Assembly: GCF_000383975.1 (NCBI RefSeq)
Contig: NZ_KB913017.1
Location: 3,820,265 to 3,884,264 of the forward strand
Length of the DNA stretch: 64,000 nucleotides
Direction: 5' to 3'
Source: Natronorubrum tibetense GA33
GTDB lineage: Archaea; Halobacteriota; Halobacteria; Halobacteriales; Natrialbaceae
The position numbers and the translations under genes were made by a program. Under the pieces are notes generated by a model. It was given only the letters and a program-made list of their open reading frames with translations, had not been told where the DNA came from and did not search any database. The number at the start of each line of letters is the position of its first letter. Position 1 is the stretch's first letter. Below, one piece after another: positions 54,489 to 59,888 of the stretch.

Positions 54489-55280
54489 TTAGAACAGGCC
54501 GCCGAGCTTCGACCGCAGCCAGCCGAGGACGCCGCCGGATCCGCCATCGTCTTCCACCGTCGCCGGCACGTCACCCTCGTCTTTGGCGACGAGTGCCGTT
54601 TCGTCCGACTCCGACGCGTTGGTGGACTCGTCGGGCGTCTCAACACTCTCGGGCGTGTCTGTGCTCTCGAGTTCGAGATCACCGGCTTCCGGATCCGACG
54701 ACTCGGCGCTCCCCTCGTCGGTCGCTGGTTCCGTCTCCGCGACGGACGCGGCCGTGTCGTCGTCCTCGAAGATGGGATCGGTCTCTTCTTCGGGCTCGCC
54801 AACACCGTTGGATTCGTTCTGAGTCGTCTCGGTCTCAGCATCGGACTCGCCCTCAACGTCGGTCTCAGTTTCGGGAGACGCTCCGGACTCCACCCAGAGG
54901 AACTCCTTTTCTTTCGTCCGACCAGTGAGCAACAGATCCGCGAGTTCGTCGTCGTCGACGCGGAGGTCGTCGTCGATGTCGGGCTCCGGATCCGGTTCGT
55001 CCGCGCTCGCGATGATGTCCTCCGGACTCTCGTCTGCGAGCACCTCGTCGGCGTCGTTCTCGGCGTTGGCCCGGAGCTGCCCGAAGACGTCCGCAGCCGT
55101 CTGATCTTCGACGCCGTCGCCGCTGGTATCGTCCCCATCCCCCGTCGTCGACTCGGCTATCGACTCGTCGTCCGCCCCCTCGAGTGACTCGTCCGCGAAC
55201 TCCCCGAACAGTTCGTCGGCGCTCGCCCCCACGTCGAACGCGTCATCGCCCGAGTTCGTATCTGTCGTACTATCTACCAT
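54489..55280 (-). CDS. Acidic haloarchaeal protein with hydrophobic C-terminal motif (263 aa)
   Basis: A 263-residue, very Asp/Glu-rich protein. Residues about 1-110 resemble a folded acidic part (DELFGEFADESLEG, VFGQLRANAEND). VDDDELADLLLTGRTKEKEF (about 106-125) is the most ordered segment. About 140-245 is low-complexity acidic and Thr/Ser-rich. The end, GSGGVLGWLRSKLGGLF, is a short amphipathic segment that could contact a membrane or a partner. No family is recognised. The start at 55280 is supported by a TATA-like run (55300-55310) about 27 bases upstream. Confidence 0.65.
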   Translation of the reverse strand: MVDSTTDTNSGDDAFDVGASADELFGEFADESLEGADDESIAESTTGDGDDTSGDGVEDQTAADVFGQLRANAENDADEVLADESPEDIIASADEPDPEPDIDDDLRVDDDELADLLLTGRTKEKEFLWVESGASPETETDVEGESDAETETTQNESNGVGEPEEETDPIFEDDDTAASVAETEPATDEGSAESSDPEAGDLELESTDTPESVETPDESTNASESDETALVAKDEGDVPATVEDDGGSGGVLGWLRSKLGGLF

Positions 55281-55965
55281 GAACCTCTTCCAAGAATATA
55301 CATAATAGCACGACTTTAACTTTTGGAATTTTTTCACCAGCAGCGGCCAGAACTGATAGTGTATTAGTGTGTCGGCCGTTTTCGATCGGTCTCGCAACCG
55401 TTGGTTGAAAATATCGCAGTTTTTTGACCATCCAAGAACGTTCGTGTGATTTGTCGTCGGCATCGGTTCGAAGCAGTCGTCTACAGGCCGTCCAACGGTG
55501 ATTACCTGCGATCACCGAGTTGGTTACCGGAACGTGACGATCGTCGTGTTCCGACGAGGGATGTAGCCGCAATCCCACACTTTGAGCGGTCACGACGCCA
55601 TTACCGCGCCCGCTCCCCGACGGTATCGGTGTTCGGTCCTCGAGTTCGTAATCGTCGACCGGCCGGACGACGAGCCGAAACCGACGGACGGTTCGAACGA
55701 TGAACAACTGATTACCGGTCACCGACGATGCAGTGTGCGGGCATCGGCGTCTCGGCTGTGTACCGATCCACAGCTACCGAACGTCTCAGTCGGCATTTCG
55801 TTACCGAGATAGCCGGAAATCCAATTCGAGATTGGATTCGCCCGTTCGGTAGAAATACGCGCAACGACCCAGAACGATCAACTCAGTTTATTGGGGAATC
55901 CACCCACTATCTGGTGCAGTCCGACAGTCGCATCGGAGACGATTTTCGGAGGCAGCGAGGAGACC
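55281..55965. other. Long intergenic stretch with dyad elements
   Basis: About 685 bases between two divergent genes, with no convincing ORF. Promoter-like A/T runs lie near 55300 (minus strand). CGGTGAT (55496-55502) pairs with ATCACCG (55511-55517), and a 26-base near-palindrome spans 55528-55553. A T-rich element before 55966 (about 55938-55950) and GGAGG (55950-55954) serve the plus-strand gene. Confidence 0.5.
55528..55553. repeat. 26-bp near-perfect palindrome
   Basis: The arms CGGAAC and GTTCCG flank a perfect inner palindrome, GACGATCGTC; only the two GT dinucleotides between them break the symmetry (22 of 26 bases match). This is a candidate operator for one of the flanking genes. 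Confidence 0.5.
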
Positions 55966-57441
55966 ATGAGAGACAACAACCAGCGAACGCACGAGGACCG
56001 GGCGTACGACATCGCTCTGTCGCGTCGCACGCTTCTGGCGGGGACGGGCGCAGTCCTCGCCGCCGGTACAGTGGTACCGGCGACAGCGTTCGCACAGGAG
56101 GATGGAGCCGCCGAAGCCGGCATCGACGAGGGAATCGAACGCCTCGAGGATGAGGGCATCGAAGTCACGGACGAACAGCGAGAGGCGGCGGTCGATGCGG
56201 CGACCGACGCTGCTGATGAGCATCCGGACGCGGACGACGATCAGATCTTCGGAGCCGCGAGCGGGGCGGTGTTCGGAGCGCTCGAAGTGGAACCGGAGGA
56301 AGAGCCGGAGACGGATCCGGAGGAGTTCGAGGTTCCGGACGAGGACGACGACGAACTCGAGTTGCTGGCGCTCCAGCAGTCACAGACCCAGCAGGTCGAC
56401 GCTTCGCAGGTCCAGGCGCTTGTGGGCGGCGGAATGAACGGCGCGCTCGCACAGTACCAGCGCGTCACCGCGACACAGATCCAGCACGCGGCGAGGGGAG
56501 CGTGCCGCGGCGCGGCGTATCAGTCGCAGGTCGTGACCGTCGAGCAACTCCAGATCGCCGCACTCGGCGGTGCGGCAGGGTCGCTCACGCAGGCGCAGTC
56601 GGTGTCGGTGACGCAGATTCAGGCGGCGGCCTGGGGCGGATCCTCGGGCGCACTCAGCGGAGTAACCCAGCACCAAAGCGTCTCGATCACCCAGTTACAA
56701 GCCGCTGCACAGGGTGCCGCGGAAGGCGCTGCTCGCGGAGCGGCCCAGCGACAGGATGTCGGTGCCGACCAGCTGATGGCGGCCGCCTACGGCTGTGCCC
56801 AAGGGGCGGCAATACAGACGCAGGTCACGAGCGTGACCCAGATCCAGGCGCTCGCCATCGGCGCGGCGCGCGGTATCGTCGTCACGTTCGTGCAGGTGAC
56901 GATCATCCAGATTCTACTCGTGGCGAGGCAGGCGGTCGCCGCGATCAGCGTCGTAATCGTCCAGATCTCGCTCGTCAGTATCACGCAGATCCAGCAGTAC
57001 GCGGCGCAGTCCGCAGCCAACACGATGGAACGAGTCGAATCGGAGGGACTCGAGAGCGAAGACGAAATCGAGGAGGCTGCATCCGACGAAGCGACGACGA
57101 CCGCCGAAGAGGAAGGCTACGAAGAGAACGGCGAGAACGGTGATGAAGACGGCGACGGAGAAGACGGTGACGACGAGAACGGTGATGATGACGGCGACGG
57201 CGAAAACGGTGATGGCGAGAACGGCGATGAAGACGGTGAGAACGGCAATGGTGAAGCAGGTAACGGCGCGAACGGCGAGATAGAGAACGGTAACGAGGTT
57301 GGCAGCGGCGAGAACGGCAACGGTAACGGCGACTCCGGCAACGGTGTCGCAAACGGCAACGATGGAAGCAACGGCGACTCCGGAAACGACGCGGCCAACA
57401 ACGGTGCCAATGGCGGCGATACACCGACGATGAACTTCTAA
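55966..57441 (+). CDS. TAT-secreted glutamine-rich repeat protein
   Basis: A 491-residue secreted protein. A twin-arginine signal (SRRTLLAGTGAVLAAGTVVP, about 19-38) has a likely cut after AFA at 43. An acidic region (about 44-130) precedes about eight repeats of about 23 residues (nucleotides 56371 to about 57030). Their consensus is roughly Q-x-VSVTQIQAAAxGAAxGA. The last two are more hydrophobic (VTIIQILLVARQAV). The tail (about 375-485) is Asn/Gly/Asp/Glu low complexity. The regular Q and G spacing is like a beta-solenoid or amyloid-type repeat, but could also be helical. No named family is recognised. The ATG at 55966 follows GGAGGCAG; an upstream frame has no signal. Confidence 0.75.
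   Translation: MRDNNQRTHEDRAYDIALSRRTLLAGTGAVLAAGTVVPATAFAQEDGAAEAGIDEGIERLEDEGIEVTDEQREAAVDAATDAADEHPDADDDQIFGAASGAVFGALEVEPEEEPETDPEEFEVPDEDDDELELLALQQSQTQQVDASQVQALVGGGMNGALAQYQRVTATQIQHAARGACRGAAYQSQVVTVEQLQIAALGGAAGSLTQAQSVSVTQIQAAAWGGSSGALSGVTQHQSVSITQLQAAAQGAAEGAARGAAQRQDVGADQLMAAAYGCAQGAAIQTQVTSVTQIQALAIGAARGIVVTFVQVTIIQILLVARQAVAAISVVIVQISLVSITQIQQYAAQSAANTMERVESEGLESEDEIEEAASDEATTTAEEEGYEENGENGDEDGDGEDGDDENGDDDGDGENGDGENGDEDGENGNGEAGNGANGEIENGNEVGSGENGNGNGDSGNGVANGNDGSNGDSGNDAANNGANGGDTPTMNF
56371..57030 (+). repeat. Array of about eight 69-bp coding repeats
   Basis: Successive segments of about 69 bases each encode one 23-residue Q-x-V-x-V-T-Q-I-Q-A-A-A-x-G unit. DNA identity between copies is moderate, so the repeats diverged by drift and are held by protein-level selection. 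The low-complexity (GAGAACGG-rich) tail at about 57112-57420 is a second, shorter repeat tract. Confidence 0.65.
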
Positions 57442-57655: not shown

Positions 57656-57678
57656 TCTCGTTAACCACTATTCGATAT

Positions 57679-58791
57679 GTGGTTTACGAGACGAACAACC
57701 AGACGGTCGACGACGCACTCGAGCGCGTGCTGGCCGGCGAGCGACTCGATCGAACCGACGGGCTCGCGCTGATGGCCCAGCCGGTCGACCCACTCGCTGA
57801 GGCCGGAGCCGCCGTGCGCGATCAGTTCGGTGACGGCACGGTCGACGCCTGCTCGATCGTCAACGCAAAGGCGGGCAACTGCGCCGAGGACTGCGGCTTC
57901 TGTGCGCAGTCCGTCCACTTCGACACCGGCATCGACACCTACGGCTTCCTCGGGCCCGAGAAGATCCTCGAGGCAGCCAAACGCGCCGAACGCGACGGTG
58001 CTCAGCGATTCGGCATCGTCGTCGCTGAAAAAGGCGTCTCGAAAGCAAACCGGCCCGAAGAGTGGGCGGAGGTCCTCGAGTCCATCCGACGCGTTCGCGA
58101 CGAGTGTGATCTCGAGGTCGACGCCTCGCTCGGTATTCTCACGGAGGAGGAAGCTGCGATCCTCGCCGACGAGGGGATCAACCACTACAATCACAACATC
58201 GAGACCTCGCCGCGGTACTTCCCGGAGATCGTCGACACCCACAGTTTCGAGGATCGGGTGAAGACTCTCGAGGTCGCCAAAGCGGCCGGGATGGACCTCT
58301 GTGCGGGCGTCATCCTCGGGATGGGCGAGACGCCGACCGACCGCGTCGACGCCGCCATCGCCCTGCAGGATATCGGTATCTCCTCGCTCCCGGTAAACGT
58401 CTTAAACCCCGTCGAGGGAACGCCGCTGTACGAACAGGGTGCAGACATCACCACCAAGGAGATAATCAAGACGGTCGCGGTGTACAAACTGCTCCACCCC
58501 GAATCGCGGGTGCGACTCACGGGCGGCCGCGAGGTCAACTTAGACCCAGATGAACAGCATCTACCCCTCGAGGCGGGTGCTGACGGCCTGCTCACCGGCG
58601 ACTATCTGACGACGGAAGGACAGTCACCCGGCGAGGATATCGAGATCATCGAGCGCGCCGGTCTCGAGCCGAATCAGGACGCCAACGAGTTCGACCCGGA
58701 GGAAGTCAAAGCGCGCCACGGCGCGTCAGCGGAGTCGTCGGCCGACGCGGATACGACGGCGAGTACGGGCGCAGAACCGAGCGACGACTAA
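57679..58791 (+). CDS. bioB: Biotin synthase
   Basis: A 370-residue radical-SAM enzyme that inserts sulfur into dethiobiotin. The cluster motif is NCAEDCGFCAQS (about 67-78; C-x3-C-x2-C). HYNHNIETSPRYFPEI is the second family region, and RLTGGREVN (about 276-284) the auxiliary-cluster site (Arg). The last 30 residues are an acidic, disordered tail, long for the family. The start is a GTG (57679). It is 33 bases upstream of the oxidoreductase gene and forms the biotin cluster with bioF and bioD. Confidence 0.95.
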   Translation: MVYETNNQTVDDALERVLAGERLDRTDGLALMAQPVDPLAEAGAAVRDQFGDGTVDACSIVNAKAGNCAEDCGFCAQSVHFDTGIDTYGFLGPEKILEAAKRAERDGAQRFGIVVAEKGVSKANRPEEWAEVLESIRRVRDECDLEVDASLGILTEEEAAILADEGINHYNHNIETSPRYFPEIVDTHSFEDRVKTLEVAKAAGMDLCAGVILGMGETPTDRVDAAIALQDIGISSLPVNVLNPVEGTPLYEQGADITTKEIIKTVAVYKLLHPESRVRLTGGREVNLDPDEQHLPLEAGADGLLTGDYLTTEGQSPGEDIEIIERAGLEPNQDANEFDPEEVKARHGASAESSADADTTASTGAEPSDD

Positions 58792-58823: not shown

Positions 58824-59888
58824 ATGGACGACGTTACGTTTGCAGTACTCGGAACCGGAGGAATCGGCCGGCGAGCACTCGAAGTGAGCCAACAGAAAGA
58901 CCACCTGACGCCGGTCGCAGCCTGTGACCGCCACGGCACCGCGATCGATTTCGACGGCCTGGACGTCGACGAGCTGCTGGCCGCAACTGAGGGCAACATA
59001 GACAACGAAGTGGCGACCGACGGCGGAACGGGCGCCACACCGGCAGACGGCGAGGGTGGCGTCAAACAACACGGCGAAAATAGGGGCGTCGTCGCCTCGA
59101 GTCAGGCCCGTCCAAGCGAGGATTCGATTCAGGACGTCATCGATCACGGCGACGAAATCAACGCCGTCCTGCTGGCGCTACCGAACTACGAACATGACTT
59201 CATCCCACGGGTCGCCGATCGATTCCTCGAGGGCGGCTACGGCGGCGTACTGATCGACGTGCTCAAACGTTCGCGCGTGATCGACATGCTCGACGAGCGC
59301 GGCGACGAGTTCGAAGACGCGGGTATCACGTTCATCTGTGGCGCCGGCGCGACACCGGGTCTCCTGACGGGCGCTGCGGCGCTCGCCGCCCAATCGTTCG
59401 TCGAGGTCACCGACGTCGAGATCTGGTGGGGCGTCGGTCTCAAGTCCGGCTACCAGGACAACCGCGGCACCGTCCGCGAGGATATCGCACACCTCCCCGA
59501 GTACGATATCGAGACCGCTCGCGACCTTTCGGACGCGGAGATTGAGGCCATTATCGACGACCACGACGGCGTCATCGAGTTCGAGGACATGGAACACGCT
59601 GACGACGTGCTCCTCGAGCGCGCGGGCGTCTGCGACGCCGAGGACGTGACCGTCGGCGGTGTCCTCGACGTCCGCAGCGACGAGAAACCGACGACGACCA
59701 CCGTCAGCGTGACGGGAACGACATTCGACGGCGAGACGGCGACGAACACCTTCCAGCTCGGCGACGAGACGAGCATGGAGGCCAACGTCAACGGGCCGGC
59801 GCTCGGTTACCTGAAGACCGGCGTCCGGCGTAATCGTGCGGGCGAGTACGGTGTCCTCGGGCCCGCCGAACTGATGCCCGGATTCTGA
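58824..59888 (+). CDS. Saccharopine-dehydrogenase-like oxidoreductase in the biotin cluster
   Basis: A 354-residue protein. An N-terminal Rossmann fold, VLGTGGIGRRALEV (about 8-21), binds NAD(P). A low-complexity insert (about 55-100) follows, then a catalytic half with GAGATPGLLTGAAALAAQSF (about 172-191) and WWGVGLKSGYQDNRGT. It resembles saccharopine dehydrogenase and related reductases. Its position between bioB and bioF, in the same direction and with a 33-base gap, suggests a biotin-related step, perhaps in supplying the pimeloyl precursor, but no evidence shows which. A stand-alone role cannot be ruled out. Confidence 0.75.
   Translation: MDDVTFAVLGTGGIGRRALEVSQQKDHLTPVAACDRHGTAIDFDGLDVDELLAATEGNIDNEVATDGGTGATPADGEGGVKQHGENRGVVASSQARPSEDSIQDVIDHGDEINAVLLALPNYEHDFIPRVADRFLEGGYGGVLIDVLKRSRVIDMLDERGDEFEDAGITFICGAGATPGLLTGAAALAAQSFVEVTDVEIWWGVGLKSGYQDNRGTVREDIAHLPEYDIETARDLSDAEIEAIIDDHDGVIEFEDMEHADDVLLERAGVCDAEDVTVGGVLDVRSDEKPTTTTVSVTGTTFDGETATNTFQLGDETSMEANVNGPALGYLKTGVRRNRAGEYGVLGPAELMPGF

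Follow-up and report, generated by a model that had tools for sequence, protein, structure and literature searches.

The stretch of DNA analyzed here (64,000 nucleotides, hereafter the window) encodes a 491-residue protein that belongs to a new, unnamed repeat family within a known kind, the modular surface repeat proteins. We read this product as an exported structural or adhesive protein, in which strand-helix units of 23 residues would stack into a rod carrying ladders of glutamines, flanked by acidic segments and serving as an extracellular spacer, scaffold or adhesive module; we assign this reading a probability of roughly 0.45. The ORF itself is a real, conserved and selected gene, and large secreted members of its family, which bear extracellular domains, open with the same cap-plus-repeat module.

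The gene and the layout of its product

The ORF runs exactly from the ATG at 55966 to the stop codon ending at 57441 on the plus strand, with a GGAG-like ribosome site just 5' of the start codon. The features assigned to it are as follows.

55966..57441, plus strand: entire gene for the secreted repeat protein (ORF, orthologue match over residues 1–491, dN/dS 0.107)
55966..56094, plus strand: predicted twin-arginine signal peptide, residues 1–43 (SRRTLLAG, ...ATAFA; sequence, weak NCBIfam TAT-target match)
56095..56289, plus strand: N-terminal cap, residues 44–108 (AlphaFold helices, matches to relatives)
56290..56367, plus strand: acidic linker, residues 109–134, 61.5% Asp+Glu (composition)
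56383..56883, plus strand: seven clean repeat units (motif scan and repeat collection)
56884..57021, plus strand: two degenerate hydrophobic C-terminal units, residues ~307–352 (sequence, hydropathy)
57022..57438, plus strand: acidic linker followed by the Asn/Gly/Asp/Glu tail, residues 353–491 (composition)

The orthologue in question, the closest, is from Natronorubrum texcoconense and is 83% identical in the top segment of the match. The dN/dS value was computed against it over residues 1–365 and is the same within the repeats; the window gene therefore encodes a protein under selection. The twin-arginine signal SRRTLLAGTGAVLAAGTVVPATAFA, at residues ~19–43, combines a hydrophobic stretch with a cleavage region and qualifies by sequence as a Tat signal, with the NCBIfam TAT-target model matching weakly at residues 16–44 (E 0.061). 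Tat-type export is thus predicted, which bears out both the TAT signal and the secretion proposed in an earlier, sequence-only reading of this DNA.

Behind the signal, the cap and the first linker, the repeat domain occupies residues 135–352, ahead of the second linker and the tail. The cap, which is common to the window protein and the large paralogs described below, is acidic and helical, with three helices in the AlphaFold model (model residues 2–19, 26–42 and 48–63; pLDDT about 57–74), two of which resemble diverged repeat units. Seven copies of Q-x-Q-x-V-x-V-x-Q-I-Q begin at residues 140, 163, 186, 209, 235, 261 and 284, spaced by 23 residues except for two spacings of 26; shuffling the repeat domain 5000 times yielded a mean of 0.012 motif copies and a maximum of one. 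The earlier count of "about eight" 23-residue units is a fair one because the two degenerate units and the diverged units of the cap add to the seven clean copies, and the Asn/Gly/Asp/Glu tail described there is likewise real (residues ~389–491). Glutamine makes up 18.3% of the repeat domain and Asp+Glu only 2.3%, compared with 17.4% in the proteins of the window, and the linkers on either side contain 61% and 44% Asp+Glu. Over the last two units (residues 301–341, positions 56866–56988), hydropathy resembles that of a membrane segment, reaching 2.2 over 19 residues, a peak confined to this protein and its close orthologue.

Relatives and gene neighborhoods

No family in Pfam or NCBIfam (E up to 10), and none among PDB sequences, covers the repeats, in agreement with the earlier statement that they belong to no named family. 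A PHROGs match (E 0.0019) at residues 358–425 probably reflects the composition of the acidic linker and tail in which it falls. Neither the repeat family nor DUF7282 turned up as the subject of a paper in literature searches.

The family as defined here comprises an N-terminal cap followed by tandem Q-x-Q-x-V-x-V-x-Q-I-Q-x-A-A-x-G-A-A-x-G units, both of which are present in the window protein. Relatives occur in 105 of the 125 genomes of the host family (Natrialbaceae); a class-wide sample places them in 64 of 242 genomes, including 15 from four other Halobacteria families, and all 13 matches in a phylum-wide sample fall within the same order. The wide haloarchaeal conservation that the sequence-only reading had named as support is therefore found. 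Viral contigs contain no relative detectable by a large-paralog search or by DNA pattern, and none was found in phages; plasmids gave one match, a Halobaculum record annotated "hypothetical protein."

The repeat module usually stands at the front of a secreted protein of 1100 to 1700 residues. The domains C-terminal of the repeats vary among relatives and include DUF7282, CARDB, TSP3 calcium-type repeats, a right-handed beta-helix and CAP, and several members terminate in an anchor-like hydrophobic segment with basic residues. The genome that harbors the window gene also encodes a paralog of 1366 residues with a Sec-type N terminus, the same cap and about 15 to 18 units, followed by DUF7282 and CARDB. 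The window protein is a short Tat-type paralog of this much larger modular protein, a relationship missed by the earlier reading, and Tat-type members recur in another genus of the host family. A further Tat-type relative (L100:9095-10120) has 341 residues and a C terminus made up of the strand motif only (QSQSVDVSQSQS), without the helix half. About 1.5 kb past the end of the window (L059:17806-17973), a 57-residue stretch matches residues 919–975 of the large paralog (58%) but belongs to a different protein.

The genes adjoining the relatives prompted a separate explanation, a secreted biotin-capture or biotin-uptake factor, which we regard as the least probable of those considered. In 26 of the 33 host-family loci examined, the large paralog is oriented divergently from BioY and its two ECF transporter partner genes; bioB follows the window gene at a distance of about 240 bases, and one gene of another family is found just downstream of a cluster of bioB, a gene like that at 58824, and bioF. 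On its other side, however, the paralog also has conserved neighbors (23 of 26), and the neighborhood therefore looks like block synteny; none of the 19 loci from other families has BioY as a neighbor, and co-occurrence is poor, with BioY in 230 of 242 genomes and the repeat family in 64. A palindrome, TCGTAAACC-N14-GGTTTACGA, marks the BioY starts throughout the host family and also the bioB start, but no such BirA-type operator was found at the repeat genes themselves. The window gene, present in 2 of the 10 genomes of its genus, is a lineage-specific insertion upstream of bioB, since three other genomes of the genus have the counterpart of 54489-55463 directly upstream of bioB. A biotin function was set aside, as the neighbor, operator-position, co-occurrence and two-sided synteny tests give it no support. 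Adjacency to BioY and bioB is most likely inherited gene order, and we take this neighborhood, striking as it looks, as a warning.

Three other observations concern this region. Across the bioB start, at 57658-57689, lies a BirA-box-like palindrome, TCGTTAACC-N14-GGTTTACGA, preceded by a TATA-like TTTATT; this element and those at the BioY starts resemble BirA operators. The gene at 54489-55463 (minus strand), which precedes bioB in several genomes of the genus, encodes an acidic protein of 324 residues that matches nothing in Pfam at E 1e-5. The gene between bioB and bioF (58824-59888, 354 residues) likewise has no Pfam match at E 1e-5 and, judged by position, may be a BioU-type replacement of BioA.

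Fold of the 23-residue unit

Repeat statistics were compiled from 973 ungapped units (869 distinct) taken from 68 proteins. Residues Q1, Q3, Q9, Q11, G16 and G20 are conserved in 85 to 96% of distinct units. Conserved and variable positions alternate over positions 1–9, with a strand-like entropy period peak at 180 degrees, and couplings within positions 1–8 favor separations of 2 and 4. The variable positions of the second half are 12, 15, 19 and 23, a spacing that would place them along a single helix face, and the nine strongest couplings within positions 8–23 all have separations of 3, 4, 7 or 8 (hypergeometric P 6.5e-5, a value that overstates the certainty, the pairs having been chosen post hoc from the top of one list and the sequences being related); the entropy spectrum of positions 8–23, taken alone, does not favor a helix. 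A number of couplings between invariant columns, produced by degenerate repeats, were disregarded as artefacts. Insertions of 8 residues preserve the strand register, and insertions of 3 correspond to about one helical turn. These patterns suggest a unit composed of a short strand (positions 1–7) followed by a helix (positions 8–22). A two-repeat alternation, seen in 57 of 68 proteins as a higher identity at offset 2 than at offset 1, was not retained, since it proved modest upon shuffling and the window protein does not show it. Shared ancestry confounded the inter-repeat couplings too strongly for a stacking direction to be read from them.

The strongest competitor to the strand-helix rod is an all-beta solenoid or amyloid-like fiber with one coil per unit and glutamines stacked as in curli, which we consider the less likely of the two. 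Two AlphaFold jobs run on two-sequence alignments place strands, not helices, through the repeats, and the final repeats of many members alternate Val, Ile and Gln. A Foldseek search with the second model gives a weak list rich in beta-solenoids, including the amyloid FapC, none of them significant and none with E below 0.001. The models nonetheless fall below usable confidence (mean pLDDT 48 and 54), and one of the five in the second job stands alone; the AlphaFold check proposed earlier did return all-beta repeats, but with low confidence. Separations of 3, 4, 7 and 8 in positions 8–23 are unexpected for strands, and the search for a curlin repeat came back empty both in Pfam (E up to 10) and among PDB sequences. 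With strand-then-helix statistics from 973 units set against two low-confidence models, the curli analogy of the sequence-only reading is not supported; we favor a strand-helix unit over an all-beta one only as the more likely of the two.

The low AlphaFold confidence, together with a simple composition and a repeat-driven sequence, would also suit a secreted low-complexity protein that is disordered and without a defined fold. We judge this improbable, given the retention of the six Gln and Gly positions, the low dN/dS that holds in the repeats too, and the patterned couplings. Slightly less probable again is a membrane-associated or pore-like protein, for which G-x-x-x-G helix faces, present in most units, and the very hydrophobic last units would speak; the other members reach only about 0.6–1.7 in that region, against the 2.2 of the window protein and its close orthologue, and the conserved glutamines are polar.

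Possible role and known systems

In the strand-helix rod that we favor, each unit would form a beta strand (Q-x-Q-x-V-x-V) and then a helix (TQIQAAAxGAAxGAL) whose Gly/Ala face would permit close packing; stacking of such units would give an elongated solenoid in which the conserved glutamines form ladders. This nearly uncharged rod may owe its solubility to the acidic linkers and tail, folding ahead of export would account for the Tat signal, and the rod would act extracellularly, in the envelope or matrix, as a spacer, scaffold or adhesive element. Of the fiber, matrix or surface role proposed earlier, a surface or matrix location is the most economical reading, whereas there is no evidence for the ice or salt binding suggested with it. 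We offer more tentatively the possibility of a new solenoid fold, in which 23-residue strand-helix units with glutamine ladders and Gly/Ala-packed helices would form a near-uncharged rod that keeps its stability in saturated salt, in a proteome that otherwise depends on acidic surfaces. Should the rod reading hold, it would show how a nearly uncharged domain can work at very high salt and would provide a natural salt-stable repeat scaffold. An unnamed surface protein family, widespread in one large haloarchaeal family, would in addition be given a definition, along with a repeat profile and a fold open to testing.

Several known systems invite comparison. Curli CsgA shares with the window protein units of about 23 residues, regularly spaced glutamines and secretion; the window repeats differ in their pattern and helix-like second half, have no curlin counterpart in Pfam or the PDB, and follow a Tat-type signal, whereas curli have a secretion route of their own. 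Some relatives end as do the anchored haloarchaeal surface proteins, in a C-terminal hydrophobic segment, whereas the acidic Asn/Gly tail that closes the window protein has no such segment. Among the secreted modular haloarchaeal proteins with DUF7282 (PF23951) or CARDB, the large paralog has both domains after its repeats and many relatives have one or the other; the window protein has neither, and its repeat module is in no searched library. Finally, leucine-rich-repeat (LRR)-like solenoids are built from strand-helix units of 20 to 29 residues with a conserved polar ladder. The window repeats differ from these in consensus (Q-x-Q-x-V-x-V-x-Q-I-Q rather than L-x-x-L-x-L-x-x-N) and in having no Pfam LRR match, and the likeness would be one of fold, in the predicted strand-then-helix unit and its polar ladder.
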